A program made the position numbers and the translations under genes. Shown piece by piece: positions 2,273 to 53,338 of a stretch of DNA of 64,000 nucleotides (within the stretch, counting starts at the first letter, position 1; the number at the start of each line of letters is the position of its first letter). Source of the DNA: Aristolochia californica (taxonomy: Eukaryota; Streptophyta; Magnoliopsida; Piperales; Aristolochiaceae); contig JARWKL010000012.1 in assembly GCA_029961685.1 (NCBI GenBank), forward strand, positions 16,911,227-16,975,226. Reading direction: 5' to 3'. The notes under the pieces were generated by a model. That model was not told where the DNA came from. It did no database searches and saw only the letters and a list, made by a program, of their open reading frames with translations.

Positions 2273-3276
2273 TGAAGAATAGAAAATCATGCAACCAAAT
2301 TAATACAAGTATTGATTTTGATAAAGTTGCTTGGAAGATTGGGAATACTCTTAAGTGTGAAGATTTTAGAGATAATGGTGGGGCTGGTAGGCACGCAGGA
2401 AAGGGAAAAGTTAAACAAAATAGGAAAAGGGGAATCCAATCAGATGATTCCAACCCAAAATCCATGTGGGTTTGTTTACAGTGTGGCCATGTGGCTTGTG
2501 GTGGGCCAGTGAGTGATAGGGTACCCAAAAGCCATGCTCTTCAACATACTCGACGCACTCAACATCCATGTGTAATTCAATTCGATAATTCACTTCTTTG
2601 TTGGTGCTTCTCGTGCAACTCACAGGCTCATGTACATTCTGATGGAATCAATGAAGAAACGGATGGTCGTTTATCAAAAGTTAAAAATTTGATCAAGGAG
2701 CAGCTGGACATGTTTGGCTAGGTGGATGTTGAAGATGATTATGTGAGCAGTAGTTTGGAAAATAAGGGACTAGCAAAGTTAGAGGCTTCTGTTTTGGATA
2801 TGAAAGGTTATAAAGTGCAAGGTTTGGTTAATCTTGGGAATACTTGCTTCTTTAACTCGATCATGCAGAACATCCTTTCTATGAAAGTTTTGCGGAACTA
2901 CTTCTCAAATTTGAACATTTCTGTTGGACCCCTCACCATGGCCTTGAAGAAGCTTTTCTGTGAAACTGGCTCCGAAGTGGATTCAAGGAGCAGCTTGAAT
3001 CCTAAAAACATTTTTGTGTGCATTTGTTCTAAAACTCCTCAATTTAGAGGATACCAACAATAGGACAGCCATGAGTTGTTTCGCTACTTACTTGATGGTT
3101 TATACATTGAAGAAGTAAATGCTTGGAAATCGGCTTCATCTGATGATGAAGAGGTTAATTCGAAAGTGGATCCTACTTTTGTAGACTTGGTTTTTGGTGG
3201 TCAGATCTCTAGTACTGTTTTCTGTATGGAATGTGGGCACACTTCAATAGTCTATGAGCCATTTTTAGACATTGAA
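2273..3276 (+). pseudogene. Captured ubiquitin-specific protease fragment (UBP1/2-like)
   Basis: Translation from about 2280 gives a ZnF-UBP domain (CLQCGHVACGG, then the HALQHTRRTQHPC histidines and CWFSC-like cysteines). After a TAG at 2719 it continues in the same frame with the USP catalytic Cys box GLVNLGNTCFFNS, a [19 protein letters not shown] segment and FCMECGHTS. The domain order matches plant ubiquitin-specific proteases that carry a zinc finger and remove ubiquitin from conjugates. The catalytic His box is absent. In-frame stops at 2719 and 3061 and the lack of introns show a decayed cDNA-derived copy. It joins calnexin sequence directly after FLDIE near 3276. Confidence 0.85.
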
Positions 3277-3780
3277 GCTAAGAGGCCCAAAGATTGGGAT
3301 GCTGATGAGGATGGTGCATGGGAGGCACCGAAGATTGATAATCCTAAGTGTGAGTCAGCTCCTGGGTGTGGTGAGTGGAAAAGACCTATGATGAGAAACC
3401 CGGTTTACAAGGATAAATGGAATGCACCATTGATTGATAACCCTAACAATAAGGGTATCTGGAAGCCAAGGCAGATTCCTAACCCTAAGTACTTCGAGCT
3501 TGATAAACCTGAATTTGAGCCCATTGCAGCTATTGGAATGGAGATATGAACGATGCAGGATGGGGTACTTTTTGCCATTATTTTGATAGCTAGGGATGAG
3601 GAGACTGCATAATCTATCAGGGTGATTGCATGGAAACCTAAGTTTGAATAGGAGAAGGAAACGCAGCCGAAAGAGGAAGTTGCAGCATCTGGTGGACTTT
3701 CTGGTGTTCCTACGAAGGTCTTTGATGTGATATACCGGATTCCAGATATTCCTTTTTTCGCAGCATATAAGTTCAAGATG
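3277..3780 (+). pseudogene. CNX: Captured calnexin fragment
   Basis: The frame continues from the protease piece into the P-domain repeats of calnexin, the ER membrane lectin chaperone: [41 protein letters not shown] and [11 protein letters not shown]. The [11 protein letters not shown] and TMQDG segments of the C-terminal lectin strand follow. A stop at about 3547 (TGA in place of the expected Trp codon), a later stop near 3612 and another near 3648 break it. The KVFDVIYRIPDIP stretch near 3718-3756 may be the downstream calnexin region. It has no signal peptide or N-terminal lectin part. Absence of introns across a multi-exon gene implies an mRNA source. Confidence 0.85.
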
Positions 3781-3944
3781 AAATTGAGAAGGAAGATGCT
3801 TCGGGCCCACAACCAAGGAGGGCAAGAAGGGAAACATAAAACTACAAGTGGGAGATCCAAAATTTTGACAAGAGTTGGTTACGTCGTTTAAAAAAAAAAA
3901 CTGGCTTCTCTGGGTGGATGCTCTAGTTTTGTTGCCCAGAGGGC

Positions 3945-4052
3945 TGACACAGATACCGCATTTGACACTTGTGAATGGATAGAGACATCGACACGGGCAA
4001 GCAGACCGACCTTCGAGCTTGAGGACAAGCTCGTTCTTTCAGGGGAGTGTAA
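3945..4052 (+). pseudogene. Relic of chromovirus pol C-terminus plus polypurine tract
   Basis: In one frame this reads TDTAFDTCEWIETS and then PTFELEDKLVLSGE. It aligns with the end of the GypA pol in this window ([16 protein letters not shown], then [14 protein letters not shown]), which lies after its chromodomain. The AGGGGAGTG at 4041-4049 is the likely polypurine tract priming plus-strand synthesis just before the LTR. The same relic closes Pack-B and Pack-D and ties the Pack family to Ty3/Gypsy. Confidence 0.75.
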
Positions 4053-4389
4053 TGTTATGCACACAATAACATTATTATTTTAATTTATTTTCTTTAATTT
4101 ACTTTATTTATTTTAGTTTTAGGTCACAGGGGTATTTTTGGAATATTTTATTTATAGGGGTATTTTTGTTATATTTTATCTTAAACCCTAACAGGGTGAA
4201 CCCTATTTAAGGGGTAAGAGTAATGAGAAAGACAAGCATTGATTTTAGGTTAATTTTAGGTTAAGCAGGTTTGGAGCTCTCCTTACGAGTTCTAGGGTTT
4301 TCAAGCGTCCCTTTGGCTTGATCTTCATTTTCTCTTCTTTCTCCCTACGAATCCCTACGGATCCATGTGTCAGATCCGGGACCGTAATA
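4053..4389 (+). repeat. 3' LTR of Pack-A
   Basis: 337 bases from TGTTATGCACAC to GGGACCGTAATA (expected end TAACA). It contains the conserved CCCTATTTAAGGGG TATA region at 4201-4214. It is highly similar to six other LTRs at 13737, 17645, 42222, 44160, 49777 and 53021. Confidence 0.9.
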
Positions 4390-4709
4390 CCAAACTCTAA
4401 CACTTAAAGATAAGTCATAACCTTATTAAATAACCCAATATAAATAGAAGACTAACATGACTAAAACACCTCTTAACTGAAACTCTTCTATGAAACCTGC
4501 TTCCATAATAATTATGGTTTTGTAAGACTTCTTATTGTGCAAGACTCCTCATTGTGTAAGACTTCTCATGTCACCACACGTGGTCATGGTGGGACCCACC
4601 AGTTCGTGATCATGGTGGATCCATATCTTATGGGCTTCGGCCCATCTTTCAACACTCTTGAATATGTGGGCCTTCCTTGGTTGTGTGGTCTTGGGCTCAT
4701 CTTCCAACA
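4390..4709 (-). repeat. LTR remnant (E-type) that hosted Pack-A
   Basis: The right-hand part of a minus-strand LTR resembles the LTRs of LARD-E elements (CTAACACTTAAAGATAAGTC). It ends in CATCTTCCAACA at 4709 and abuts the CopF gag without an internal region. Its other part should lie left of Pack-A outside the window. Confidence 0.7.
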
Positions 4710-5674: not shown

Positions 5675-5686
5675 TCACAAAATAAA

Positions 5687-5698: not shown

Positions 5699-5700
5699 CT

Positions 5701-6100
5701 TGTTAGAAATTAGACGCCCTAATTCCAAACTAATGAGAGCAATAATAATAAACGCAGAAGAAGGGAAAAAACAAGCACAAAAAAGCACAACCAGATTTAT
5801 ACAGGTTCATCTCAAGGTGAGACTATGTCCTATCTTCTGCCGCTACAGTAATCCACTATGAAGATGAAATAGTTTACTAGAGAGATCTCACGCTTACAAG
5901 TGTTTCTCTCTAACCTCTCGGGCTGCAACTCAAGATACTCCTCGAATGAAGATGATCAAACCCTAATAGCGGCGTCCCACAATTATAAAGAGAAAATTAG
6001 GACGACCGTGATACAAGAGTAAAATTTTGAAACTATCCTTAATGAAACACCATTCAATATATCATGGACCAGGCGGGGGCTTCATCTCCACAACTTAACA
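5701..6100 (-). repeat. 5' LTR of CopF
   Basis: 400 bases, from TGTTAGAAATTAGACG at 5701 to CAACTTAACA at 6100 on the plus strand. There is no second copy in the window. It is followed at once by CopG RNase H-linker sequence. Confidence 0.8.
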
Positions 6101-6939
6101 GATAAGTTTGCCCACAAGTATTTGATATTTTCCAATATCAATATCTTCTCAAGAACTTGCACATAATTTTACATTCGCATCCATAGGTGTGCTAGCTGAG
6201 CGACACCCCATCATTCTCGTTTCTTCGAGGAGATCCAAGACATACTTTCTCTGAGATAATATTATCCCATGGAATGAAGAACTTCTATGCCCAAAAAAAT
6301 TTTAGAAGTCCACGATCTTTAGTTATAAATTCATGACATATCATGTTTTTTACTCTTTGTATGCTATGTGTATCATTGCCGATTAAGACAATATCATCAA
6401 CATACATAGCCAATAGTACCTTTCCTTTTGAGGTACCTTTATAAAATACAGAATGATCTAATGAGCGCCGATTAAATCCAAACTGTAGTAGTGCTTGGCT
6501 AAATTTATCAAATCAGGCTCAAGGGGACTATTTAAACCCATATAAGGATTTCTTTAAGTGGCACAGACTCCCCCTCAACCACATAACTAGGTGGTTGAAT
6601 CATATAAATTTTCTTGCGTATATCACCATTTAAGAAAGTATTTTTTACATCGAGTTGATAGATGGGCCATGAAGAGTGAGCTGCAAGTGATAAAAGGATA
6701 CGTACCGAATTTAACTTGGCAATAGGAGAGAAGGTCTCCTCATAGTCCACTCCAAAACATTGAGTGTACCCTTTAGTGATGAGGTGGGCCTTAAGGTGAG
6801 TAATGGACCCATCTAGATTATGTTTGATAGAAAACACCCATTTACAACGTAGTAGTTTCATACCTGTTGGAAGTGGTGCTAAGTCCCATGTCTGATTTTT
6901 ATATAAGGCTTGCATTTCCTCATCCATATCCGCCTTCAA
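6101..6939 (-). pseudogene. Copia reverse transcriptase (CopG)
   Basis: The frame 6939-6532 gives the start of RT: MDEEMQALYKNQTW, CKWVFSIKHN, GVDYEETFSPIAK and YQLDVKNTFLNGD. After a break near 6530, the rest continues to 6101 with the catalytic AMYVDDIVLIG motif near 6394-6405. Both Asp residues of YVDD are intact. This enzyme would copy element RNA into DNA in cytoplasmic particles. The GLKQSPRAWF region is deleted or garbled at 6520-6535. RNase H is missing because CopF inserted at 6100. Confidence 0.85.
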
Positions 6940-8232
6940 TCCTGAATGTTGCTGGGCCTCCTGATAGGTCTATGGAATATAGGTGGAAGAAAGAGATTCA
7001 AGGAACTAAGAACATGTGGAAGACAAATGATGGTGAGACATAAAGTTGGATATAGGATGAGTAGTACAAAAACGACGTTCTTTTCATAGAGCAATAGGTC
7101 GAGTATCAAACTATGAACCAAATGGAATAGAGGAATGATTTACCTCAACAGGATCCAAAAATTCCATAGGTGAGGTGTCGGCTGGTGCTTCGGGGGGGGG
7201 AGGTGTGGGAGGACAATGGCATTAAAGGGCACAAAAGGACAAGAAGTGGTAGGAGGGAATGACAAACCTAGAGGAGCATCATTCGAGGAATAGAATGAGG
7301 TGTCCTAAACAAAAGGTCACATCTCGAGATACAAGTAACCTCCGAAGTGTAGGATTGTAACAGACATAACCTTTTTGGGTGTGACAGTAACCCATAAAAA
7401 TACACTTCATAGAATGAGGAGCAAATTTACTTTTCTGAGGAGATGTGATATGACCGAAACATGCACAACCAAAAATTTTTACACGAAGAGAAAATGGGTT
7501 TCGCTAGGAAATAATACAAAATATGGAGTCTTATGACCAAGTACAGATGAAGGTAGCCTATTGATAAGAAACAATGTTGTAAGTATGGCATGAGGCCAAT
7601 AAAAGTGAGGTACCTTTCATGGAGTAGAGGAGTCCCCAAGCAACAACAAGGAGATGACGGTTCTTTCTTTCAGTAACACCATTCTTTTGAGGTGTGTAGT
7701 CATAAGATGCTTGATGGATAAGGCCATTACCTTCCCAAAAGGATTTAAACTCTCTAAACAAGTATTCTTTAGCATTATTAGACCTATGGATTTGAATTTT
7801 CTTGTCAAACTTAGGTAATACCATAGCATGAAAGGCCTTAAAGATAGTTATTATTTCAGATCTTTCTTTAAAAAGATATGACCTAGTAACCCTGGTAAAA
7901 TCATCAACAAATGTAACAAAGTATTCAACATGAGAAATATTATAGACACACAAGGGTCCCCATATATCAGAATGTAATAGAGAAAAAGGAGCAACACTTG
8001 TAGTTTTAGACCGAGGAGAATATGTACTCTGTTGGTGTTTGCTCAATTGACAAACCTCACAATTGAAAGTAGATAAAGACTTTAAAGAGGGAAATAAATG
8101 GCAAAGAGAAGGTGTAGATGAATGGCCAAGCCAGTTGTACCAAAGTTGTACCTCAGATGGAGAGGATGAAAGTGCAGCTAACAGAGGTAGGTCGAAGTAA
8201 TACAAGCCCCCTTTTTTTATGGCCACCACCAA
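6940..8232 (-). pseudogene. Copia integrase (CopG)
   Basis: The 8232-7558 frame (224 codons) shows the HHCC zinc domain (WLGHSSTPSLCH, then CEVCQLSKHQQSTYS) and the catalytic core start HSDIWGPL. FVDDFTR, then RSNNAKEY and TPQKNGVTERKNRHL follow. The second catalytic Asp, normally in RSDNAKEY, is Asn. The frame then breaks, and the C-terminal linker with RDV-type sequence is scattered through 7557-6940, which includes a G9 run near 7193. A non-functional integrase is expected. Confidence 0.85.
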
Positions 8233-8331
8233 TCACCCACTTTGTCATGAGATCCTAAAATACACAAGAAGAGGGTGAGAAGGTGATAGAGCAATTTAGA
8301 TGTTTTGCAAGTTGACTTACAGAGAGTAATT

Positions 8332-13736: not shown

Positions 13737-14070
13737 TGTTATGCACGCAATAACATTGTTATTTTAGTTGTTTTTCTTTAATTTACTTTATTTATTTCAG
13801 TTTTAGGCCACATGGGTATTTTTGTAATATTTTATTTATAGGGGTATTTTTGTAATAATTTAACGTAAACCCTAAAAGGGACCCTATTTAAGGGGTAAGA
13901 GTAATGAGAAGGGAAGCATTGAAATATTGAGAATTAGGTTAATTCTAGAGTAAAAAGGCTTGGAGTTCTCCTCAACGAGCTCTAGGGTTTTCAAGCTTCC
14001 CTTTGGCTTGATCTTCGTCGTCCTCCTCTTCCTTCCTACGAATCCTTGTGTCAGATCTGGGACCGTAACA
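13737..14070 (+). repeat. 5' LTR of Pack-B
   Basis: TGTTATGCACGC to GGGACCGTAACA, 334 bases. It differs from the 3' LTR by scattered substitutions and small indels such as the missing TTAT near 17690. Confidence 0.92.
13883..13896 (+). promoter_or_regulatory. Conserved TATA region of the Pack LTR
   Basis: CCTATTTAAGGGGT is nearly unchanged in all seven Pack LTRs (near 4203, 13884, 17788, 42372, 44336, 49929, 53170). A like-placed CCTATTTAAGGG is in both GypA LTRs on the minus strand (36601-36612 and 41553-41564), and CCTATTTAAAG in the solo Gypsy LTR at 63066. Position and composition fit a pol II TATA box. The transcription start is inferred downstream. Confidence 0.65.
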
Positions 14071-14072
14071 AC

Positions 14073-14084
14073 TGGTATCAAAGC
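14073..14084 (+). other. Primer-binding site of Pack-B
   Basis: TGGTATCAAAGC lies two bases after the LTR. It differs at one base from the initiator tRNA-Met complement seen intact in Pack-C (42560-42571). Confidence 0.85.
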
Positions 14085-14090
14085 GGGAGC

Positions 14091-14384
14091 ATGATGAGCC
14101 AAGAAGACCCACGGTTGGCGATGCACAGACAAATTGGAGAAATGGCTGCAACATGCTTTGGAGTAGAAAGAATACAAAAATGGTGTGCCTCCTGGGTGAA
14201 ATATGGGCTATCAACGGAGTATCGAGAGGCATTCGCTCGAGAAGCTATCTCGAACGGACAGGAAACTCCAGCGACGGCCCTGTCAAAACAGGTCACACGA
14301 CCTCAAATCTCCGACCACATATGCGGACAAGAGGTAGCAGAAGCTATCTTGAACGGGGCAACAGGCCAAGGGCCGAAAAAATAA
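14091..14384 (+). CDS. Pack leader ORF (Pack-B copy)
   Basis: The first ATG after the primer site opens a 97-codon frame. Its C-terminal part, with RPQISDHICGQEVAEAILNG, matches the Pack-C leader (RPQFSEHDICTEEAAEAVSNG). The first part is unlike the LEEW repeats of Pack-C. I find no known domain. It may be a remnant of a Gypsy gag N-terminus or a new element protein. Position directly behind the primer site in three copies shows that it belongs to the element and not to a captured gene. Whether it is translated is unknown. Confidence 0.5.
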   Translation: MMSQEDPRLAMHRQIGEMAATCFGVERIQKWCASWVKYGLSTEYREAFAREAISNGQETPATALSKQVTRPQISDHICGQEVAEAILNGATGQGPKK

Positions 14385-15077
14385 AAAAATTTCGTCTGGT
14401 TTACCGGTCGAAGCACCTGCGGAAGGTTTGGGGGCGACCTCAAATCCGACACCGAAAACCATGGAAATTGTTGAGAGGGACACAAATCCGATTTCGGACT
14501 CAGACCTTCTGCAATCAAACGGTGGCGATTTTAGGAAATCGGAGGGGTATTTCCCAAACCCCTTATCATGGGAAACCAGAATTCCATAGGCGATGCCAAT
14601 AAAATCGCCCAGCGAAGAAGCCCCTAAGGGGTGTTGTTCACCGTCGGAGAGCTCAGCAGGCCCCCAACCACAACGCCTTTCCTCCTTCCGTCGCTTTGGC
14701 AGCCGGCATGGCGCGGAGCAAACGGGAGAAAGGGCGATGGGGAAAATGGGCGTCAGACCATATCTCGAACTATGAAACGACAACTCCTCCAGCGGGGACA
14801 CCTCGACGTCCTCCTGTTCACCACCGGAGGAAGAAGAGGCACCATCGGCGCCGTCGGAACCAACCCCGGTGGGATGTGACTTCCGGCCACCACCTCCCAC
14901 TCGCAATCTACTTCTCGGCATGCCTGAGTAAACTCAAATTCCAATTTGGGTGGGGGGGGGGGGGGGGGGGGCCGTGCGTGAGTAAACTCAAATTCCAATT
15001 TGGGTGGGCGGGGGGGGGGGGGGGGGGGGGGGTAAGCGTCTCGGAATTTTATTTTTTTTAAGAACTCTGTTGTTCTG
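14385..15077 (+). other. Pack-B leader continuation with possible splice donor
   Basis: The DNA is GC-richer than its surroundings and aligns piecewise with 50380-51030 of Pack-D and 43200-43440 of Pack-C. The right edge reads GGGTAAGC (15030-15037). Pack-D has TTGGGGGTAAGCTTCT at the matching place and Pack-C TGGGGTAAACTC, which would fit a 5' splice site. Plausible minus-strand ORFs here look like shadows. Confidence 0.45.
14928..15032 (+). repeat. Tandem duplication with two long poly-G runs
   Basis: A unit beginning GTGAGTAAACTCAAATTCC and ending in a G run occurs twice (first copy from about 14930, second from 14978). The runs are G20 at 14952-14971 and G23 at 15010-15032. The run lengths may be unreliable in any assembly. 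Confidence 0.85.
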
Positions 15078-15462
15078 TTGATTCACACAATACCTGTGTA
15101 TGTTAATTTGCCTGCTAGAATGCGTTGGAGAGCTTTGAATGAGATTGATCTTAGGATCAAAGAAGTTTTCACTATTCTGTTAGTGGATACATTTCATTTT
15201 AGTGGGAGTGCAACATCTTTTCCGTTGCTGAATTTTTTTTTGAGGGGCTATATTTTGCTGTTGATGAGCACAGTCACTGTGCGTGGGGTCATTACGCAAT
15301 TGACACGGTGAGTCCATTTAATTTTCCTCTTAATGAGTTCACCCACAGTGTGAATGTCCTGTATATATTTGTGCTTCATGGCATGCTCTTGCATGATACG
15401 GACGTTCCTTTTGAGAAAACAGCAACAACTACTCTACATGTTGAAGGGCTAAATTTTTTGGG
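15078..15462 (+). other. Pack-B region of unknown origin
   Basis: Open frames 15078-15311 and the start of 15308-15835 show no domain I recognise. A related region in Pack-C (43444-43860) shares the general position between leader and poly(A)-binding-protein piece. It may be element-specific sequence or an unrecognised capture. Confidence 0.35.
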
Positions 15463-15835
15463 TCTCGTCATGCGAGACGGAGTTGGGAAATTCCAATGTT
15501 TTGGAAGTGTTAATTTTGAGAATGTAGAAGTATGCAGTAGTGTTGTCTACAATGGTAAGAATGCATGCTTGTTAAATGATTTTGCTATTCTAGATCCACC
15601 TACTGTTGGGTATGTGGAGAAAGACGAATCAGTGTTGCATGTTTTTGTTATTAGAAGTGCCTCAGTTGATACTGCAGAAATGAGGTGCAACTCAACCATC
15701 TATCTTAGGAATTTCAGTGGACTTCAAGCAGCCACAAGTGTGAACTGTGAATCAGAGATGTCCTTCTTGGGAAAGGAGAACAGTGCTGCACTTCAACATT
15801 CCATTGTTCTTATATTTCAACCTGCTGAGGCATAA
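15308..15835 (+). pseudogene. Upstream section of the Pack-B chimeric frame
   Basis: This 175-codon frame contains unknown sequence, a poly(A)-binding-protein RRM piece (about 15463-15560), further unknown sequence and the start of an IAA-amino-acid hydrolase piece (HSIVLIFQPAEA). It ends at TAA 15833-15835. It is in the same frame as the 538-codon frame starting at 15854, so one stop separates the two within continuous hydrolase homology. Confidence 0.75.
15463..15560 (+). pseudogene. PABP: Captured poly(A)-binding protein RRM2 fragment (Pack-B)
   Basis: Translation GLVMRDGVGKFQCFGSVNFEN matches the end of RRM2 in cytoplasmic poly(A)-binding proteins, where MRDGDGKSKCFGFVNFEN is usual. The RNP1 motif is altered at two positions (KFQCFGSVNF). 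The same part of the same gene is present in Pack-C (43905-44159) and Pack-D (51847-51960). Only about 33 codons remain here. Confidence 0.7.
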
Positions 15836-16206
15836 GGAATAGGAGCTTGGAACATGCTCCTAGAAGAGGTGTTGGAAAATGTAGAGGCTATGTTGGGCAT
15901 TCACTTGGGGTTTCACTATCTCACAGGAGTAGTGGCTTTAAAAGCTGGAAACTTCTTGGCTGGCTGTGGACACTACAAAGCAAAGATTAGTGGAAAAGGA
16001 GGCCATGCAGCTATTCCACAATCTTCAATTGACTCTGTTTTGGTAGCATCATCTTCAATAATCAGCTTACAACAACTTGTCTCAAGGGAGGCAGATCCTC
16101 TAGATTCACAGATGGTTTCAGTGTCCCACATCAATGGAGGCAGTGCTTACACTTTCATTCATGATTCAGTAACAGTTGGCGGCACTTTCAAGGCATTTCG
16201 TGCAGA
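15785..16206 (+). pseudogene. Captured IAA-amino-acid hydrolase fragment (ILR1/ILL-like)
   Basis: Residues from HSIVLIFQPAE through [44 protein letters not shown] and [15 protein letters not shown] follow plant ILR1-like amidohydrolases of the M20 family, which release free auxin from amino-acid conjugates in the ER. The piece covers the middle of the protein, including the dimerisation insert. Metal ligands at both ends are missing except the QPAE region, where the second Glu reads Ala followed by a TAA stop. The family gene has several introns and this copy has none. It continues in frame into kinase sequence at about 16229. Confidence 0.88.
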
Positions 16207-17470
16207 GCAGCCAAGTGGCATGTTGGGGGAGATTATGAAGCATTTACCTCAACATCCAACCATAGTGCGCTTGAGGGTTACTTACGAGGGTAATACTGCC
16301 GTGTATCTTGTGCTGGAATTGTGTACAGGAGGTGAATTGTTTGCTCGTATCATTGCCAGGGGACATTTTGCAGCAAGGGCTGCTGCTGGGCTTACCAAAA
16401 CATGTGTGGAAGTAGTACAGATGTGTCATAAGCATGGGGTCATGCACCGAGATCTCAAGCCTGAGAACTTCTACTGTTGGGCACCTGTATCTACTGCTAA
16501 GGATGCATTTGTGTTGTATGGTTCTGCTATTAGTGCAGTAACTTCTGTTGGGTCTGCTGCTATTCCAATCAGCATTGGAATCGTGTTAGATTTCTTGTGG
16601 TATGAACCTTCTAGTGAGAGAATCAATGATATGGCAGCAGTTCAAAGGGCAAGAGATTTTCATCTTGGTTGGTTTCTGGAACCAAACAGATTTGGTCACT
16701 ACCCCAGATCAATGGAACTAATGGTAGGAGAGCGGCTCCAACAACTCTACTGGGTGAAATCAGATTGGAATAAAGATGAAAGAATGGCAGGTGATTGGGT
16801 GCACACTTCTGGAAAATGGAGTGGTCGCACTGATAAAGGCATCCAAACCTCTCCAGACTACAGAATTTTTGCTATCTCTTCACAGTTTCCTCAGCTCTCT
16901 ACCAAAGACAAGACCTTGGTCTTTCAATTTTCTATTAAACATGAGCAGCAGTTTGATTTTATCCCTATGAAGAGAAGCACCCTCCAGCAACTCAGGCAAG
17001 ATATGACATTGGCTTCACTACTTATTGATCAAATTACCTACCTTGATGATTGGGTTGTACGGGATAGAGAGCATTCACTGTCTTTGGCTGGGGCTACTGC
17101 AGCATTGGAAGCATGCCCTCTCCACCTTTCTGTCACTGATGGGGCGAGGGCAGATGTACAACTAGTGAAGGATTCAATTAGTTCAGCTATTCATGTTGTG
17201 CCAGTCATGGGTTCCTCAATGTATCATTTACTGTCAAGGGCAGAGGAGCTGAATTCTCTGGTGTCGGCACTTGCTACCGTAGCAGCACTGGAGAGTGTCC
17301 TGCTTGACGCATGTGGAGACCTATTAGCTTCAACAGTAGCAATGCCTGTAAAGGAAAGTAGCCTCAAAACTCACATTATACAACTCCAAACAAGCTCTAC
17401 TTCATCGGCTCTATCTATCTCAACCATCGAATATTTGTTTACCGGCCAGCGAAATGAAGAATGTCCATGA
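15854..17470 (+). CDS. 538-codon chimeric ORF of five host-gene fragments (Pack-B)
   Basis: One uninterrupted frame joins an ILR1-like hydrolase piece (residues about 1-118), a CDPK catalytic piece (126-210), a segment of unknown origin (211-240), a GH1 beta-glucosidase piece (240-296), a calreticulin N-terminal piece (297-367) and a QWRF-family piece (368-515), then an unplaced tail. The ATG is the first in frame after the TAA at 15833. No domain is complete, so no original activity is expected. Transcription from the upstream LTR is plausible but not shown. The frame ends TGA at 17468-17470, about 165 bases before the polypurine tract. Confidence 0.8.
16229..16482 (+). pseudogene. Captured calcium-dependent protein kinase fragment
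   Basis: The sequence [53 protein letters not shown] and [10 protein letters not shown] is the alpha-C to catalytic-loop part of a plant CDPK, a Ca2+-activated Ser/Thr kinase. The HRD and N of the catalytic loop are intact. The Lys of the ATP site, DFG and the calmodulin-like domain are absent. GARGHF-type changes are few, so the capture is fairly well preserved. In plant CDPKs this part lies mostly in the first large exon, so intron absence is not informative here. Confidence 0.88.
16483..16587 (+). other. Unassigned segment in the Pack-B chimera
   Basis: About 35 codons ([19 protein letters not shown] and following, up to IPISI) link kinase and beta-glucosidase sequence. The alanine-rich composition suggests a further small capture, but I cannot name the source. 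Confidence 0.4.
16571..16740 (+). pseudogene. Captured GH1 beta-glucosidase fragment
   Basis: [14 protein letters not shown], then [17 protein letters not shown] and [16 protein letters not shown] match plant family 1 beta-glucosidases in the stretch between the two catalytic glutamates. The usual wording is [16 protein letters not shown] and YGDYPKSM. Neither catalytic Glu lies in the piece. It joins calreticulin sequence directly after GERLQQ. Confidence 0.85.
16741..16953 (+). pseudogene. CRT: Captured calreticulin N-domain fragment
   Basis: [25 protein letters not shown], here cited only by its ends WVKSDW and GKWSG, is followed by [16 protein letters not shown] and [16 protein letters not shown]. 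This is the start of mature plant calreticulin, the soluble ER lectin chaperone. The signal peptide, the rest of the lectin domain, the P-domain and the HDEL tail are missing. Calreticulin genes have many introns; none is present. Confidence 0.88.
16954..17397 (+). pseudogene. Captured QWRF-family (augmin-8-like) fragment
   Basis: [69 protein letters not shown] and [15 protein letters not shown] match the C-terminal helical domain (DUF566) of plant QWRF proteins. These proteins associate with microtubules; one member acts as augmin subunit 8. About 148 codons are retained without a stop. The QWRF signature itself lies upstream in the family and is not included. It is the longest captured piece in Pack-B. 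Confidence 0.82.
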
Positions 17471-17574
17471 GAATTTATTTTTTTTCAAGACCTGAAAAAA
17501 AATCCTTGAAGGTTTGCTCCAGTTTTTGGGCATCCAAAGAGCGCACATGATTTTCGCGGATGCTACTCGGGCAC

Positions 17575-17644
17575 CAGTGAAGACGTCGGCATATAGACAC
17601 TACTTCCGAGCTTGAGGAAAAACACGTTCTTCCGGGGGGTGTAA
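17575..17644 (+). pseudogene. Gypsy pol relic and polypurine tract of Pack-B
   Basis: CTTCCGAGCTTGAGGAAAAACACG and the following bases are the counterpart of the FELEDKL codons at the end of Pack-A, with a frameshift. GGGGGGTG just before the LTR is the polypurine tract. Confidence 0.7.
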
Positions 17645-17974
17645 TGTTATGCTCGCAATAACATTATTATTTTATTTATTTTTCTTTAATTTACTTTATT
17701 TCAGTTTTAGGCCACAAGGGTATTTTTGTAATATTTTATTTATAGGGGTATTTTTGTAATAATTTAGCGTAAACCCTAAAAGGGACCCTATTTAAGGGGT
17801 AAGAGTAATGAGAAGGGTAGCATTGAAGTATTGAAAATTAGGTTAATTCTAGAGTAAACAGGCTTGGAGTTCTCCTCAACGAGCTCTAGGGTTTTCAAGC
17901 TTCCCTTTGGCTTGATCTTTGTCATCCTTCTCTTCCTTCCTACGAATCCTTGTGTTAGATCTGGGACCGTAACA
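17645..17974 (+). repeat. 3' LTR of Pack-B
   Basis: 330 bases from TGTTATGCTCGC to GGGACCGTAACA, followed by the target duplication GTGGG. Confidence 0.92.
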
Positions 17975-42221: not shown

Positions 42222-42557
42222 TGTTATGCACACAATAACATTATTATTTTAAATTTTTTTCTATAATTTACTTTATTTATTTCAGATTTAAGCCACAGGG
42301 GTATTTATGGAATATTTTATTTATAGGGGTATTTTTGTAATATTTTATATTAAACCCTAACAGGGTGAACCCTATTTAAGGGGTAAGACTAATGAGAAAG
42401 GAAAGCATTGATTTAGGTTAATTTTAGGTTAAACAAGCTTGGAGCTCTCCTTACGAGTTCTAGGGTTTTCAAGCTTCCCTTTGGCTTGATCTTCGTTTTC
42501 GCTTCTTCCTCCCTACGAATCCCTATGAATCCTTGTGTCAGATCTGGGACCATAACA
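42222..42557 (+). repeat. 5' LTR of Pack-C
   Basis: 336 bases, TGTTATGCACAC to GGGACCATAACA, with CCTATTTAAGGGG at 42371-42383. The upstream five bases are TTGAG. Confidence 0.92.
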
Positions 42558-42559
42558 AC

Positions 42560-42571
42560 TGGTATCAGAGC
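42560..42571 (+). other. Primer-binding site of Pack-C
   Basis: TGGTATCAGAGC, a perfect initiator tRNA-Met complement, two bases after the LTR. Confidence 0.88.
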
Positions 42572-42580
42572 GGGAACACA

Positions 42581-43222
42581 ATGAGCCATTCCCTAGAAGA
42601 ATGGATTGTCGTGATCAAAGAATTATCCCTAGAAGAATGGATGGCCATGCTTAGAGAATTATGCAGAGAAAAGGAAGAAGAACGTGCACGGGGTATTCGC
42701 AAAGAAGCGGAAATAATGTGTGACTGGCGTGCAGCTTCCATTAAAAAATTTTATGCAAGGAAGCAATTGGCTGCAACAGAAAAGGTCATACGACCTCAAT
42801 TCTCCGAGCACGACATATGCACAGAAGAGGCAGCAGAAGCTGTCTCGAACGGGTGGAAACAGGAAATTTCAATATGTCTGAGCAGGGGAACTCTAGCAAT
42901 GGGTCAGAAAAAATTGATTTCCAAATCAGGGAAATTGGACAAGAGGGACCCTACACATCAGAAATCGAAGTCGACTTCAAATCCGAAATTGGCCTCAAAA
43001 CTTCCAAAATTAGACCGCGGAGACACTGCAAATCCAAAATCGAAGGGTTTTGGGGAAAAGTGTCCTTCGGGACGATACGATGAGCTCCAACCCCTTGTTT
43101 TTGCTCTCGGTCTTCAATTGGGAAATCCATCCTCTCTGGAAATTCTAGAAACGAGGATTTCATCGGCCAAATTTCATCGATTTGGGCTCAAGTTCAAATC
43201 AATTACGTGCAAGACACCATAA
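42581..43222 (+). CDS. Pack leader ORF (Pack-C copy, 213 codons)
   Basis: The first ATG after the primer site opens an uninterrupted frame. It starts with two related units (SLEEWIVVIKEL, SLEEWMAMLREL), then a charged EKEEERARGIRKEAE stretch that could form a coiled coil, then RPQFSEHDICTEEAAEAVSNG shared with Pack-B. A Ser/Lys/Pro-rich half (KSKSTSNPKLASKLPK) follows. Pack-D encodes the same start with three stops. I recognise no domain. Size, charge and position recall a Gypsy gag N-terminus, but no capsid block is visible. It is the best candidate for an own protein of the family. Confidence 0.55.
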   Translation: MSHSLEEWIVVIKELSLEEWMAMLRELCREKEEERARGIRKEAEIMCDWRAASIKKFYARKQLAATEKVIRPQFSEHDICTEEAAEAVSNGWKQEISICLSRGTLAMGQKKLISKSGKLDKRDPTHQKSKSTSNPKLASKLPKLDRGDTANPKSKGFGEKCPSGRYDELQPLVFALGLQLGNPSSLEILETRISSAKFHRFGLKFKSITCKTP

Positions 43223-43904
43223 GGGTGTTTTCTTCACCGTCGACAGGGAAATATTTCAAGCCTCGAAGCCACAACGAGTGGCTGTTCAACACCGGAAATT
43301 GAGGAGGAGGCTCCGTCGGCGACGTTGGAAACAACTCCGATGAGATTTGACTTCCGGCCACCACCTCACGTTCCCTCTCAACCTCACTCTCGGTCTCGGC
43401 AACACAGTGGAAAACAAAATTCCGAACAAACTGGGGTAAACTCTTGCGAAGAATTTCTCCATATTTCATCTTCTCTTTTCTCAAATCCCTCTATGTTCTA
43501 CATAATTCCTCTCCAATGGCGTTGAAATTGTTTCGTAAAAATTTTGGGGCTGTGACGCAAGAGGGACATTTTTTGGGGATTTCGGGAATGGAAAGCACAA
43601 AATTTCTATGGGTGCTGATTTATTTTTCGGTTATTGAGAACAGCACCGATGCGTATGTTCATCTTCAAGTTGAATTCGTTGTATCTAATTTTTTGGATAA
43701 TATGTGTGCTGCTGCTCGAGCCCTGTTCGTGCTAAATGGGATGTCTTCTATTGTGGTGAATGACTACAGCAGCAGTGTGGCATTTTGGGTAATTTTTATA
43801 GTAGTAACAATCCATTTAAAATAGTGGTGTTAATTTTTTTGGATGAATTATATGATGCTCAACCATTGTTTATCATAATTCTTCACCCTGGTGTGCCTTT
43901 TGGT
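43223..43904 (+). other. Pack-C region between leader and capture
   Basis: The part 43230-43440 aligns with 50850-51030 of Pack-D (CACCGTC/GGAAA words, GACTTCCGGCCACCACCTC shared with Pack-B 14878). An ORF at 43444-43824 shows no known domain. The TTTTTTGGGGA and GGGAATGGAAAGCA-like words near 43570 recur in Pack-D near 51220. Confidence 0.5.
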
Positions 43905-44159
43905 GATGAAGATTTGAAGAAACTATTTGGTGGGTAAGAAAACATTACAAGCGTTGCACTACTGAGAGAAGGAGATCGGTAATCCAAATGTTTTGGATTT
44001 GTTCACTTTGAGAATGCGGAAAATGCTGCTCTAGCTGTTGAGGAACTTAAAAGGAAAAAAATTGATGCCAAGGCGTGGTATGTGGAGCAGGCTCAGAAGA
44101 AATCAGAATGGAACATGGATTTGAAGGGACGGGTTGAGCAGATTTATAAGACAATTGTA
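43905..44159 (+). pseudogene. PABP: Captured poly(A)-binding protein fragment, part 1 (Pack-C)
   Basis: Conceptual reading gives DEDLKKLFGG, ENITSVALLREGD, SKCFGFVHFENAENAALAVEEL, AKAWYVEQAQKKSEW and DLKGRVEQIYK. This is the second half of RRM2 plus the linker of a cytoplasmic poly(A)-binding protein, which binds mRNA tails. Two stops (near 43936 and 43982) interrupt it. The solo LTR at 44160-44590 splits it, and the protein resumes as VDKYQGVNLYLKNL at 44591. No introns are present. Confidence 0.85.
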
Positions 44160-44590
44160 TGTTATGCACGCAATAAAATTATTATTTTAGTTGTTTTATT
44201 TAATTTACTTTATTTTATTTCAGTTTTAGGCCATAGGGGTATTTTTGGAATTATTTATTAATAGGGATATTTTTGGAATATTTTATTCATAGGGATATTT
44301 CTGTAATATTTTATTAAACCCTAACAGGGTGAACCCTATTTAAGGGGTAAAAGTAATGAGAAAAGAAAAAGCATTGAAGTATTAAGAATTAGGTTAAATA
44401 TAGTGTAGACAGACTTAGAGTTCTGCTCAACGAGCTCTAGGGTTTTTAAGCTTCCCTTTGGCTTGATCTTTCGTTTTCATCTTCCCTATGTCTTCCTACT
44501 ATCCCTACGGTAATGCTTGGAAGACCCATAACCCGTGGCAGACCCCAGATCCTCCCAAAGAATCCACGTGTCAGATCCGGGACCGTAACA
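44160..44590 (+). repeat. Solo Pack LTR inside the poly(A)-binding-protein capture
   Basis: 431 bases, TGTTATGCACGC to GGGACCGTAACA, longer than other copies because GGGATATTT-type units are repeated near 44260-44310. Flanks are TTGTA (44155-44159) and CTGTC (44591-44595). With the LTR and one flank removed, the protein frame is continuous across the site. It marks an insertion of another Pack element that was reduced to one LTR. Confidence 0.85.
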
Positions 44591-44706
44591 CTGTCGACAA
44601 GTACCAAGGGGTGAACCTGTACTTGAAGAACCTGGTTGACAGCATAGCTGCTGAGAAGCTGAACCAATTGTTTCCTGAGTTTCGTCTACTTACTTCATGC
44701 AAGGTT
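44591..44706 (+). pseudogene. PABP: Captured poly(A)-binding protein fragment, part 2 (Pack-C)
   Basis: VDKYQGVNLYLKNLVDSIAAEKLNQLF, here split as VDKYQGVNLYLKNL and EKLNQLFPEF, is the linker and start of RRM3. The RNP2 motif LYLKNL is intact. Homology ends after LLTSCKV, where a different sequence begins. Pack-D has the same RRM3 start (EKLEELFSALGIITSC). Confidence 0.85.
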
Positions 44707-44999
44707 TTTGCCGTGAACTTGATAAATGTGTTGAGTGGTATATATGCTATCATCACAAGTCGTTCTAAGAGCCCTGCTGTGATAGGAGATTCACAGTATA
44801 GTATGTCCAATAGCAATGATGGGCATGGGCTTAAGCATGACATGCTAATGCAATTAAAGAAAACCCTGCCTGATCCTGTACAAGGTTTTAGTCAAGGATA
44901 TGAAGGGAAAGACGCGGTTATTGAGAACTTGAGACAGTTGTGTGTTTTAGAGGCGAGCAGGTTAGATTCTCAAAGGGCAAGATTCCCAAGATTTGCTCT
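44707..44999 (+). pseudogene. Unidentified captured fragment (Pack-C)
   Basis: The frame from the poly(A)-binding-protein piece continues open for about 97 codons to the LARD-E3 edge. It contains FAVNLINVLSGIYAIITSR, QYSMSNSNDGHGLKHDM and DAVIENLRQLCVLEASRLD, which look like ordinary plant protein sequence with helical segments. The source is not recognised. It has coding-like composition and probably comes from one or two host mRNAs. Confidence 0.5.
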
Positions 45000-45440
45000 T
45001 GTTGGAAAATAAGATCAAGTCCAAATGACGAAGGAAGGCCCACATATGTAAGATTATTATAAGATGGGCCACATGACCAAGGAAGGCCCACAAAATGGGC
45101 CCAAGCCTATAAGAAGTAGGATTCACAATGATTACCAAGAGTTGGCATCCATATTACATCAGTTGGAAGAGCAAGAAGGACTCACAAAAGTATCTTTATC
45201 TTGGGGTCACGACCAAAAAGAGTTTTAGTTTAAGTTATATTTGTCTTTTATCAATATTTAGTTACCTAATTATGTTAGGAATTACCTTAAGTGTTAGAGT
45301 TTGGGTGTAATTGGGACAAGGATAGTTTTATTGTAATTGGACTCTACTACCTTCCTCTATTATAAATAGATGTTCATGTACTCTGATTACAACAAGTTAT
45401 TGATGTCAATAAAGTATTTCAATTTTTCATAAATTCAACA
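45000..45440 (+). repeat. 5' LTR of LARD-E3
   Basis: 441 bases, TGTTGGAAAATAAG to TAAATTCAACA, very close to the E1 and E2 LTRs. Confidence 0.85.
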
Positions 45441-49776: not shown

Positions 49777-50115
49777 TTCTATGCACACAATAACATTATT
49801 ATTTTTATTTTATTTTTCTTTAATTTACTTTATTTATTTCAGTTTTATGCCATAGGGGTATTTTTGGAATATTTTATTTATAGGGGTATTTTAGTAATAT
49901 TTTATATTAAACCCTAACAGGGTGAACACTATTTAAGGAGTAAGAGTAATGAGAAAGACAAGCATTGATTTTAGGTTAATTTTAAGTTAAACAGGATTGG
50001 AGCTCTCCTTACGAGTTCTACGGTTTTCAAGCATCCATTTGCCTTAATCTTCATTTTCTCTTCTTCCTCCCTACAAATCCCTTCGAATCCTTGTGTCAGA
50101 TTTGGGACCGTAATA
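49777..50115 (+). repeat. 5' LTR of Pack-D
   Basis: About 339 bases. The expected start TGTTATGC reads TTCTATGC and the end reads CCGTAATA, so both termini have decayed. CACTATTTAAGGAG marks the TATA region at 49927-49940. Confidence 0.85.
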
Positions 50116-50138
50116 ACTGGTATCAGAGAGGGAACACA

Positions 50139-51035
50139 ATGAACCATTCCCTAGAAGAATAGATTATCGTGTGCAAAGAATTATCCCTAAAAGAATGGAT
50201 GGTAATGCAGAGAGATGAAGCGAAAATAATACGTGAATAGCATGCAACATACATAAAAAAAAATTATGCAAGAAGGCAACTGGCTACTGCATAAAATTTC
50301 ACCGCCTCCAAGCACGAATTAAGGACCAAACGAGAGGCAACAGACGTTGTCTCGAATGGGAAAATAGGTCACGAGCAAGAAAATTTAAAAATTTTGTCCT
50401 TTTTACTAGCCGAAGTCCCGACGGAAGATTTGAGGTGGTCCGGATTAAAAGGACATGCTTCAGAAAAATTCAATATTTCCGCACAGCGAGATCCAAAGCC
50501 GACCAACGGGGACCACATTTTGGGGAAATCGGCAGAGTTTTATGCCAAAACGTCGTCGGTAGTGGACGATATTGGTGTGACACCAAATCCGAATCCGGAG
50601 ACCTTGAAAATCTCCGAGAAGGACCCGAGAAATCTGAAATCGGAGAGGTATGATGCTAAAACCTCGTCGGCGTTGCAAACCTCAAATCCGAAATTGCGGA
50701 CAATGGCAATCTCCAAGCAAGGATGCCATGCGCAACAATCCCAAGCAGGGCAAGGGGACCCAGCAATTTCGAAATCACACCAACGAGGCTCACAACAAGC
50801 AAAACTCCTCGCCAAACAGAAGAAGGTAATATTTTTGGCGCTTCTTCCGGCCGGATGTGTTTCCGAGAGCCCTCTATCTTGGAAAATCTCCAAGCGGCGA
50901 AGCCTCCTAGGGCTGTTGTTCGCCATTGGAGAAGGGGGAGACTCCGTCGGCTTCATCGGACAAATTTCCACACAACCTCGCGCAACGAAGCCCAACGGAG
51001 AACCTTCTTCAACTAAATTGGGGGTAAGCTTCTGA
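50139..51035 (+). pseudogene. Pack leader ORF (Pack-D copy)
   Basis: The first ATG after the primer site (TGGTATCAGAGA, 50118-50129) starts MNHSLEE, as in Pack-C, but stops follow at three places before 50300. The same frame is then open from 50394 to 51035 (213 codons) with a Ser/Lys-rich composition (KISEKDPRNLKSERYDAK) and no known domain. The end lies over TTGGGGGTAAGCTTCT, a possible splice donor. Confidence 0.55.
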
Positions 51036-51315
51036 AACATCGACTATTTTTAGGTCACATCTATTGTTCCCTTGGGGGTGAAGGGGCTCCCAGGGGCTGA
51101 GCAGCAACAACGCTGCTCGAATTTTTAGACTGGGGGTTTTCTGTTCCGGGAGGCAAAGAACCAACATCGTTTTGGTGAAATTACGGCTGGTGTGTATGAA
51201 TTCCGAGAGGGAATTTTTTTGGGGACGCCGGGAACGATAGAAATTTTTTTCTAGATGTGGTTTTATTTTCTACTGCTGAGAAAAGCAACTGTGGGCCTCT
51301 TCCAATTTTTGCAGC

Positions 51316-51690
51316 ATGCGTGGATGCAGGACATGTTTCATATTCTTTGATGCTGAAATTTTTTTGTGGAAGAATTACAATGATGTGGATGCTTGGCATA
51401 CCATACAAAAATTTCCATTTGTAAGATATAAAAGCTTTGTTCTGGTGATCGAAGCCTTTGGAAGGATTGGGCAGCTAGACCAAGCAGAGGAATTATGGTT
51501 GGAGATGAAGTCCAACAGCAGGTTGAAGCGGACTGAGCACTTCAACTCTCTTATATCTACATATTGTAGACATGGGTTTGTAAATAACGCATCAAAGCTT
51601 TTTCAAGAAATGGAAACTAATGGCTGCAAGACAAACGCCATTACGTATAGAAACCTAGCTCTTGGCTATTTCATAGTAGGCTTGGTAGAA
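51316..51690 (+). pseudogene. Captured pentatricopeptide-repeat protein fragment
   Basis: From about 51420 the frame gives SFVLVIEAFGRIGQLDQAEELW, here cited as FGRIGQLDQAEELW, then LKRTEHFNSLISTYCRHGFV, NASKLFQEMETNGC and TNAITYRNLALGYF. These are about three 35-residue PPR helical repeats of a plant organelle RNA-binding protein of the P class. The targeting peptide and other repeats are missing. The frame runs into a short tandem repeat after LVEDQ and stops at 51858. The first 35 codons (51316-51420) belong to the element. Confidence 0.85.
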
Positions 51691-51800
51691 GATCAGATCA
51701 GACCACAAGCAGTTGGGTTAGGATCAGACCAGACCACAAGCTATTTCAGTTCGGATCAGATCAGACCACAAGCAGTTGGGTTAGGAGATCAACACCGTGG
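51691..51800 (+). repeat. Short direct repeats after the PPR fragment
   Basis: GATCAGATCAGACCACAAGC followed by AGTTGGGTTAGGA occurs at 51691-51723 and again at 51754-51787, with a partial third copy between (GATCAGACCAGACCACAAGC). The word GATCAGA is frequent. It may be slippage during reverse transcription at the capture junction. Confidence 0.85.
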
Positions 51801-51846
51801 ATGGAATCCACACTTTTACTTGTTGAAATATTTGCTGATAGGGGTG

Positions 51847-52000
51847 CTGCAGATTTGAAGAAAATATTATGTGGGTAGGAAAACATTACAAGCACTGTAG
51901 TAATGAGAGAGGGAGAGGGGAAAACCAATTGTTTTGGATTTGTTCACTTTGCAAATGAGAAGCTGGAAGAATTGTTTTCTGCGTTGGGAATAATTACTTC
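51847..52000 (+). pseudogene. PABP: Captured poly(A)-binding protein fragment (Pack-D)
   Basis: ADLKKILCG, a stop, ENITSTVVMREGEGKTNCFGFVHFAN and then EKLEELFSALGIITSC join part of RRM2 directly to the start of RRM3. About 60 residues of RRM2 and linker are deleted at HFAN-EKL compared with Pack-C. The stop at the FGG(W)ENITS position is shared in place with Pack-C, which suggests common descent of the capture. Confidence 0.82.
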
Positions 52001-52190
52001 ATGCCTTCATTTATTTGAAACCAAATGCAAATTGTCTGTCACTCCTGGTGATGGCTTGGAATCAAATGTTTGGAACGCTAGGACAGTCAGATTCTGCCAA
52101 AAAAGGACCGCAAGGGAGGCAATGAGTGTCTTTGAGGAGATGGCATTACAGCAGGGGTCCAGTTATGAAGAATTTGCGAATGCAGCAACT
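52001..52190 (+). pseudogene. Unidentified captured segment (Pack-D)
   Basis: An open part of frame 51903-52472, about 60 codons containing LSVTPGDGLESNVWNARTV and REAMSVFEEMALQQGSSYE, lies between poly(A)-binding-protein and NAP1 sequence. It looks like normal protein, but I cannot name the source. Confidence 0.4.
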
Positions 52191-52960
52191 GCTTCTAATG
52201 TTGCCAAGTACCAGAAACTTTATGACCCACTATATACCAAGAGATATGAGATAGTAAATGGAGTAATTGAAATCAACGAATCTATAGAACCTATTGAGGA
52301 GGTTTTTGAAGAAGAAAATGCAGTTGAAGAGAAAGGTGTTTACCATTTCTGGCTTACGGCGATGCAAACTAATGAAATGCTTGCAGAGGAGATACAAGAG
52401 AGTGCTGAGGGGGCTCTTAAATATTGGAACGATGTCCAGTGGTCTAATATTTATACTTCCAAGGGCTGCTAGCTGGAGTTTTTTTTTATCCCAATCCATA
52501 TTTTACATATATTGTCTTGGTCAAAATTTCTCACATGAAAGCAACAGGGACAGATATTCAGTGGCTTCCAGGGAAGAGGCTGGACACAGAAGGTTTTGAA
52601 GCAGCCAAACAAGGGATCAAAGGACACCACACCCATCACAAAAACTGAAATGCGTGACAGTTTGTTTATTTTCTTCCGTCCTCCTCAATTCCTAGATGAT
52701 GATGATATTGATGAAGCAACTGCTGAATAGCTTCAGACTCAAAGGGAACAAGATTATGATATTGGATCCACCGTCAAAGCCAAACTTTTCCCACAGGCTG
52801 TCTCATGGTTTATGGGAGAGGCTGTTTAGGGTGATGAGTTTGATGATATAGAAGGGGATGAGGATGAACATGATGCAGATGTTGATGACGATGATGATGA
52901 TGAAGAGGACACTACTGCCAAAAACAGGCCTAAGAAGGTATCTGCTGGATGGAAGGTGAC
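52191..52960 (+). pseudogene. NAP1: Captured nucleosome assembly protein 1 fragment
   Basis: KYQKLYDPLYTKRYEIVNG, EEKGVYHFWLTAMQTNE, LAEEIQESAEGALKYWNDVQW and, after frame changes near 52490-52580, [34 protein letters not shown] and [13 protein letters not shown] follow plant NAP1, a histone H2A-H2B chaperone. The acidic tail remains as a GATGATGAT-rich stretch (52850-52910), followed by KNRPKKVSAGWK. Most of the NAP domain is covered. At least three stops or shifts inactivate it. NAP1 genes are intron-rich and this copy has none. Confidence 0.88.
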
Positions 52961-53020
52961 ATTGGCATACAGACCTTACTTTCGAGATTGAGGACAAGCT
53001 AGTTCTTCTAGGGGGTGTAA
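52961..53020 (+). pseudogene. Gypsy pol relic and polypurine tract of Pack-D
   Basis: ACTTTCGAGATTGAGGACAAGC encodes the TFEIEDKLVLL relic in one frame. AGGGGGTG at 53010-53017 is the polypurine tract. Confidence 0.72.
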
Positions 53021-53338
53021 TGTTATGCACACAATAACATTATTATTTTTATTTTTTTTCTTTAATTTACTTTATTATTTTAGTTTTAGGCCACAAGGGT
53101 ATTTTTGGAATATTTTAATTATAGGGATATTTTTGTAATATTTTATATTAAACCCTAACAAGGTGAACCCTATTTAAGGGGTACGAGTAATAAGAAAGAC
53201 AAGTATTGATTTTAGGTTAATTTTAGGTTAAACAGGCTTGGAGCTCTCCTTATGAGTTCTAGGGTTTTCAAGCTTCCATTTGGCTTGATCTTCGTTTTCT
53301 CTTACGAATCTTTGTGTCAGATCTAGAACTGTAACATC
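53021..53338 (+). repeat. 3' LTR of Pack-D
   Basis: 318 bases, TGTTATGCACAC to AGAACTGTAACA, followed by TCGTT. Confidence 0.9.

Follow-up and report, generated by a model that had tools for sequence, protein, structure and literature searches.

The stretch of Aristolochia californica DNA considered here (the window, 64,000 nucleotides) is C24:16911227-16975226 of a genome of 659,574,684 bases in 521 contigs. It carries members, A to D, of a long terminal repeat (LTR) retroelement family that we call Pack. The Pack family is genome-wide, a single non-autonomous LTR family with many intronless fragments of host genes. These fragments were captured from spliced RNA, and the cargo modules are common to many copies, exchanged and amplified jointly. 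We hold it very probable that A to D belong to one family in which template switching onto spliced host mRNAs creates chimeras, which are amplified as units, apparently with a preference for those in an open frame. Throughout, C-numbers are contigs, L-numbers genomic loci examined, and P0122 and P0241 predicted A. californica proteins.

One LTR family across the genome

Comparison of the window with itself reveals seven LTR sequences, pairwise about 80-95% identical, with primer sites and leader in common. They form one family, as the original prediction from the window had it, and do not fall into several. Direct paired LTRs of the form TGTTATG...GTAACA, with point changes and the ends TG..CA, are present in A, B, D and five copies elsewhere in the genome. 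Target duplications of 5 bp, with one mismatch at most, flank every one of the 8 cargo-bearing elements whose two LTRs and flanks are available: CCAAA at A, CAGGT at the element on contig C1, CTCTC at that on C221, and one-mismatch pairs at B, D, L003, L014 and L020. For A and L014 the LTR end was placed two bases past the end printed by the script, at a terminal CA or TA. A primer site of the TGGTATCAGAG type, probably an iMet type, lies 2 nucleotides (nt) downstream of the 5' LTR. The leader is common to family members and a G-rich tract lies near the 3' LTR, with TGTAA between tract and LTR start (TGTTATG) in most copies listed. Integrated 5' LTRs start at TGTTATG directly after the target duplication, unlike the TGTAA-preceded 3' LTRs, which may point to heavier trimming of the cDNA end than is usual. 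Long poly-G tracts were also noted in the leader of B (14953-15033) and, in L037, directly before the 3' LTR. Kimura two-parameter divergence within LTR pairs ranges from 0.035 to 0.102, which gives about 1.3-3.9 million years at an assumed rate of 1.3e-8, quoted in PMC5664825, although this rate may not be that of the present plant.

No gag or pol was found in A to D, in three sense frames of each, three antisense frames of B, C and D and one antisense frame of A, which bears out the earlier claim; the same test applied to a neighbouring Copia element in the window yields reverse transcriptase (RT), integrase and gag. Three sense frames of 17 further locus stretches, mostly parts of elements, were likewise free of retroelement domains. 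A Gypsy pol relic had been proposed for members with a preserved 3' end. This was not confirmed: the tract common to members with a 3' end is short, about 65-165 bp, no pol was found in any copy scanned and no search here identified the tract as Gypsy. The control Copia is a decayed copy on the minus strand at 6050-11000, with matches to gag, integrase and RT, and sequence related to it occupies 28141-31775.

At first look, a genome search with the LTR gave 3,295 candidates. Forty were scored and 30 loci taken; first-look figures are not copy counts. Copies at 24 of the 30 loci carry host-gene cargo, identified through Pfam or through DNA resemblance to cargo already assigned. The cargo of L023 is common to other copies and has no family assignment, whilst L004, L005 and L022 are LTRs alone, the first two with perfect 5-bp duplications. 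Pfam gave no match on one frame of L060, a PDB search with one frame of L006 gave 0 matches and an Rfam scan gave 0 matches. Searches with cargo returned 75 match pieces for D (395 candidates, 40 scored), 73 for A (61 candidates, 40 scored), 41 for B (556 candidates, 40 scored), 67 for the beta-galactosidase cargo (347 candidates, 40 scored) and 61 for that of L008 (514 candidates, 40 scored); protein P0241 returned 117 (1,039 candidates, 81 scored). The whole B cargo occurs at 93% identity in four further genomic places among those scored, the A cargo recurs at C111 and the D cargo at C46. A family confined to a local cluster is ruled out by these copies and cargo across the genome, and the idea that each element carries different cargo gives way to modules common to copies. 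Nor did the fragments enter by unrelated later insertions, since the cargo recurs with LTRs elsewhere. Between 33.9 and 34.7 Mb on C111 there is a cluster of family copies, and L025, L026 and L029 there carry cargo of protein arginine methyltransferase (PRMT) type.

Host-gene cargo and its origin from spliced RNA

The features of the four elements are as follows, with positions in the window.

Element A
2273..4389, + strand: part of A within the window; target duplication CCAAA on both sides, right copy at 4390-4394
2273..3268, + strand: fragment of a UBP1/2-type ubiquitin protease (zf-UBP, UCH); Pfam, structure match
3269..3890, + strand: calnexin fragment with stop and 3' untranslated region (UTR), in frame with UBP; Pfam, structure match
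4053..4389, + strand: 3' LTR; LTR comparison, target duplication

Element B
13737..17974, + strand: B, LTR to LTR; target duplication GTGAG / GTGGG
13737..14070, + strand: 5' LTR; primer site from 14073
15203..17467, + strand: fused reading frame, 210 + 544 codons with one stop between
15776..16204, + strand: ILR1-like amidohydrolase fragment; Pfam M20, structure match
16229..16477, + strand: CDPK kinase fragment; Pfam, structure match
16496..16744, + strand: GH1 beta-glucosidase fragment; Pfam, structure match
16748..16957, + strand: calreticulin fragment; weak in B (E 0.16) but clear in P0122, a related protein
16958..17395, + strand: QWRF / AUGMIN subunit 8 fragment; Pfam, structure match
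17645..17974, + strand: 3' LTR; LTR comparison

Element C
42222..44999, + strand: 5' LTR, leader and poly(A)-binding protein (PABP) cargo, without a 3' end in the window
43902..44138, + strand: PABP RRM fragment; Pfam, structure match; PABP resumes at 44591 (VDKYQGVNLYLKNL) by reading
44160..44590, + strand: solo family LTR inside the PABP; comparison with relatives

Element D
49777..53336, + strand: D, LTR to LTR; target duplication TCATT / TCGTT
51400..51700, ends approximate, + strand: PPR fragment; Pfam
51852..51959, + strand: PABP RRM fragment; E 0.017 in D, 1.5e-7 in the relative L033
52182..52955, 3' end approximate, + strand: NAP1 fragment; Pfam, genome matches
53021..53336, + strand: 3' LTR; LTR comparison

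The host fragments had been named correctly from the letters of the window: UBP and calnexin in A; PABP-like, ILR1-like, CDPK, GH1, calreticulin (weak) and QWRF/AUG8 in B; PABP in C; PPR, PABP (weak) and NAP1 in D. Matches to solved structures agree: USP16 and calnexin for A, an ILR1-like hydrolase, a CDPK, a beta-glucosidase and AUGMIN 8 for B, and PABP for C. That there are four LTR elements holds for A, B and D, which possess both LTRs and target duplications, the 5' LTR of A being outside the window at C24:16906323, 4.9 kb to the left. Element C is broken. The segment 44160-44590, formerly assigned as its 3' LTR, lies within PABP, where L006 and L085 are uninterrupted; it is bordered by TTGTA and CTGTC, and the site in L006 reads TTGTC. 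An LTR within PABP and an unoccupied site in relatives identify a solo LTR, so that no 3' end of C lies in the window and C as a complete element is ruled out. The outer flanks of C as first delimited, TTGAG and CTGTC, differ from each other, and one frame of 44591-45010 gave no Pfam match. A second LTR element, with LTRs 93% alike, is nested in A from C24:16907587 to window position 2272 and splits the UBP fragment.

Host-gene families known as cargo number 21, ten in the window and eleven from related loci or proteins, excluding a TBC-like segment that is an unverified reading. Outside the window these include aspartate carbamoyltransferase, PRMT, DUF760, beta-galactosidase and GH3. In L008 a GXGXG-type glutamate synthase, elongation factor 2 (EF2) and a DEAH-helicase HA2 domain share one frame, the GXGXG match being clear in L085. 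Cpn60 was recognised at E 7.5e-8, yet under the Pfam cut-off. Protein disulfide isomerase (PDI, in P0122) and endoplasmin (in P0241) were recognised as cargo in proteins annotated for A. californica. P0122 showed no LTR context, whilst L088, the locus of P0241, is placed in the family by leader and 3' cargo in common. By a raw count we take 8 of the 21 families to be proteins of the endoplasmic reticulum (ER) or secretory path.

Introns were compared for calnexin, beta-galactosidase, EF2 and endoplasmin. The captured region of the host calnexin gene (L078) is interrupted by three introns bounded by GT..AG, 110, 122 and 120 bp long, and all three are missing from 4 of the 4 copies checked (L073, L074, L076 and L079). 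Element A also lacks the first, and a deletion has removed the segment to which the second and third belong. Host beta-galactosidase (L084) has three introns in the captured part, absent from the elements on C221 (L006) and C1, and the single intron of host EF2 (L086) is missing from the captured copy. Exons of endoplasmin that are separate in the host at C13:33855123-33856821 are continuous in the element. Because the host calnexin, beta-galactosidase and EF2 introns are missing in the elements, we conclude that capture was from spliced RNA, and the description of the fragments as intronless is sustained. An apparent fourth beta-galactosidase intron proved to be coding sequence deleted in L006 and kept in the C1 element, and a supposed retained intron in the EF2 module was coding sequence deleted in L008.

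These observations bear on two further routes of entry. Host DNA might have entered LTR elements directly, by Helitrons, Pack-MULEs, nested insertion or double-strand-break repair, and gene DNA is indeed captured by other plant transposons (PMC13317346). Against this, introns are cleanly absent, the fragments of A to D are all in the sense orientation relative to the element LTRs, those of B abut one another, and target duplications flank the whole unit; LTR ends with 5-bp duplications occur in place of Pack-MULE or Helitron features. No host family was found on the antisense strand (three frames of B, C and D, one of A) beyond one match at chance level. We give DNA-level entry very little credence. 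Processed pseudogenes made by LINEs and landed inside LTR elements would also be intronless, and an A-run after the calnexin 3' UTR near 3890 in A is a candidate poly(A) remnant only. The fragments, though, are internal coding pieces joined directly in series, the beta-galactosidase piece replaced some 422 bp of older cargo, and the junctions read for beta-galactosidase and UBP-calnexin showed neither a poly(A) tail nor an inner target duplication. This route is equally hard to credit.

Capture, exchange and the reading frame

A capture event can be followed for beta-galactosidase, with L085 as the older state, L084 as the donor and L006 as the product. In L006 some 422 bp of the older cargo gave way to approximately 570 nt of spliced beta-galactosidase, and the 5' join shares about 1 nt. 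Two beta-galactosidase genes, at C35:24764839 and C35:24778123, lie some 13 kb apart in opposite orientations and are equally close to the captured copy over the scored exon matches. In A, the UBP fragment, 97% identical to host gene L062, replaced the 5' part of calnexin and the preceding carbamoyltransferase, both present in the relatives L014 and L070, and the UBP-calnexin join has a 3-nt overlap, GAC. The host UBP gene, on contig C1, matches an A. californica protein at 100% identity across 99% of the query, and the nearest protein from a different species, A. fimbriata, at 77%. Since UBP and beta-galactosidase replaced older cargo, capture was still ongoing when these sub-families arose. 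Exchange is evident in the matches to cargo B: 23 scored places start exactly at query position 1152 and two end exactly at 1142, indicating that modules were swapped at a common breakpoint.

The junctions, the loss of introns and the sense orientation lead us to propose template switching. Enzymes acting in trans would reverse transcribe element RNA and, in the course of minus-strand synthesis, would switch to a co-packaged spliced host mRNA and back, or to the RNA of another member, such that new pieces replace or extend older cargo. The chimeras then amplify as units between LTRs, the step observed here, and those whose RNA is readable in one long frame appear to amplify preferentially. An open frame may protect the RNA, for example from nonsense-mediated decay, or may couple it to translation and packaging.

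A competing account has a few ancient captures only, the present diversity arising by recombination among members. Modules are widely common, PABP is present in many of the loci examined, and B looks as though two cargo types already in existence had been joined at query 1142-1152. On the other hand 21 gene families are involved, and older cargo was replaced both by UBP (three cargo copies among loci examined) and by the long beta-galactosidase piece, which is 90-96% identical to host exons and scored in four places. We regard this account as possible, if rather unlikely.

Fusion of the fragments in frame had been missed from the window alone. In A, zf-UBP/UCH and calnexin share one of the three sense frames searched with Pfam; in B, M20 (ILR1-like), kinase, GH1 and QWRF share one, with calreticulin (E 0.16) between. 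Adjacent pairs of different host families, with E up to 0.01, were counted in three sense frames of A to D and the 17 further stretches. Ten of the 14 pairs are in one frame where 1/3 is expected (P 0.004): one in A, three in B, two in L008, one in L047, two in L033 and one in L071. Left out were L070, for which one frame was scanned, and L088, where PRMT has E 0.014; a bPH_9 match in L024 (E 0.0095) overlaps PRMT and gave no neighbour pair. The frame scanned in L070 holds RRM, carbamoyltransferase and calnexin together. Element D has PPR in one frame and NAP with the weak RRM in another, an offset that looks like a later indel because L033 has PPR-RRM-NAP in one frame, with 391 codons open. 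The C1 element has a 510-codon frame spanning leader and PABP. The copy at C329:7681708-7683237 lies within a 1,033-codon open frame, of which the 926 codons read comprise an N-terminal peptide, endoplasmin and further host-like pieces. This peptide is common to the C329 copy and the C1 element (P0241 against L002, 74% over 128 residues).

Could the pattern reflect chance or ascertainment, long open frames being easy to notice? The sample is small, some junctions are of common ancestry and the ratio of nonsynonymous to synonymous substitution (dN/dS) is near 1. However, the count was made from Pfam matches in three sense frames, not from the length of open frames, the open L088 was excluded, some of the out-of-frame copies appear to carry later indels (D against L033), and a stop-free frame of 1,033 codons is unlikely by chance, though found via an annotated protein. 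We lean away from this explanation, which might nevertheless apply.

The ratio dN/dS over modules, with copies covering under 50-60% of a module dropped, ranges from 0.59 to 1.53 among copies: 1.23 and 0.82 for calnexin, 1.08 for NAP, 1.07 for carbamoyltransferase, 0.82 for PPR, 0.65, 0.89 and 1.00 for RRM pieces and 1.53 for UBP (one pair). The N-terminal peptide gives 0.90 (bootstrap 95% 0.76-1.09). Leader frames give 0.59 and 0.63, with 0.55-0.86 for shifted frames of the same alignments, and the tail of L088 gives 0.68 with changes about equal at the three codon positions. With dN/dS near 1 the amino acids are under no clear constraint; protein-level constraint is unsupported, the low values being matched by shifted frames or by equal codon positions. 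Stop-making changes number 34 against 48.7 expected in six modules, each distinct change counted once (P 0.017 with changes treated as independent). A stronger depletion relative to hosts, 27 seen and 55.2 expected, came from counting shared changes repeatedly and shrank under the single count. The dN/dS values and stop counts agree, weakly, with a filter that acts on open frames and not on what the protein does.

The fusions might instead be host genes in the making, domesticated chimeric proteins, given that NCBI lists P0122 and P0241 as predicted A. californica proteins. The modules tested display no third-position excess or clearly low dN/dS, many copies contain stops and many copies are dispersed. 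Domestication is, we consider, improbable.

Several observations weigh against serial capture from spliced RNA with a preference for open frames. No autonomous partner of the family was found. Pfam identified no host family in the examined stretches of L012, L027 and part of L055. The UBP fragment falls within a single open host stretch of 881 codons, one large exon, and is therefore uninformative on introns. Four of the 14 pairs, in D, L042, L071 and L048, are in different frames, the junction of beta-galactosidase and glutamate synthase in the C1 element is out of frame, and the counted pairs are partly dependent, as D, L033 and L048 may share junctions. Stop depletion is only modest once distinct changes are counted once and there is no deficit in UBP (4 seen, 2.9 expected). 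We also note that the chimeric frames are known here from open frames and gene models.

A bolder and more tentative proposal, which we rate at somewhat less than even, is that the family acts as an RNA-level exon-shuffling engine with a reading-frame filter, such that only chimeras open behind the common N-terminal peptide MGVKGLPG... multiply. With the same reserve, openness and not protein sequence would be selected, and mRNAs would be sampled continually, several of them for ER-made proteins, among which we presume calnexin, calreticulin, PDI, endoplasmin, ILR1-like and the secreted glycosidases to belong. If the frame filter is real, retrotransposition would depend on translation or on escape from RNA surveillance.

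Relation to known gene-capturing elements

Capture of genes by plant LTR elements has precedent, and a 2026 review (PMC13317346) gives as examples Bs1 (three genes), Rider and a TRIM; it also describes how templates are switched between co-packaged RNAs. According to the same source, maize Bs1 is an LTR element with three host-gene segments that form a chimeric, transcribed and translated gene. The Pack family by comparison involves 21 host-gene families across a large family with modules exchanged among copies. Bs1 is one low-copy element. TRIM and LARD are non-autonomous LTR elements moved in trans, and as a rule their internal region does not code, in contrast to the run of host coding fragments found here. 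Pack-MULEs and gene-capturing Helitrons are DNA transposons that may keep introns and have no LTRs or primer site. They resemble the Pack family in that they gather and shuffle host pieces and give chimeric transcripts (PMC13317346).

Host genes or fragments inside LTR elements are also on record in maize, rice, sorghum and pepper. For maize, 425 LTR elements with captured fragments are counted, stemming from at least 189 captures; no element had fragments of more than one standard nuclear gene under the conditions used (PMC2774510). Captured genes number 672 in rice and 1,343 in sorghum (PMC3726574). Non-autonomous LTR elements harbour about 72% of the retroduplicated NLR genes of pepper, and mention is made of single elements with two or three genes (PMC5664825), so that multi-gene cargo is not wholly new. 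In contrast to the maize and pepper elements, B has about six fragments in one frame and its family keeps exchanging them. A search of open-licence PMC literature, by titles and starts of abstracts, returned no described family with serial in-frame capture.

Until now, gene capture by LTR elements has been seen chiefly as isolated events. Where one family captures again and again, often in frame, and amplifies, it offers many datable junctions with known donors, which makes possible countable tests of the RNA-mediated capture route, of which mRNAs are packaged and of whether chimeric frames are filtered. The family may also bear on genome size in A. californica, haplotype 1 of which is given in PMC11334207 as 661.61 Mb, more than twice the genomes of two relatives. 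Some predicted Aristolochia genes (P0122, P0241) are fusions of element type. In public gene models the former is named PDI-like and the latter an endoplasmin homolog, and annotation is affected.

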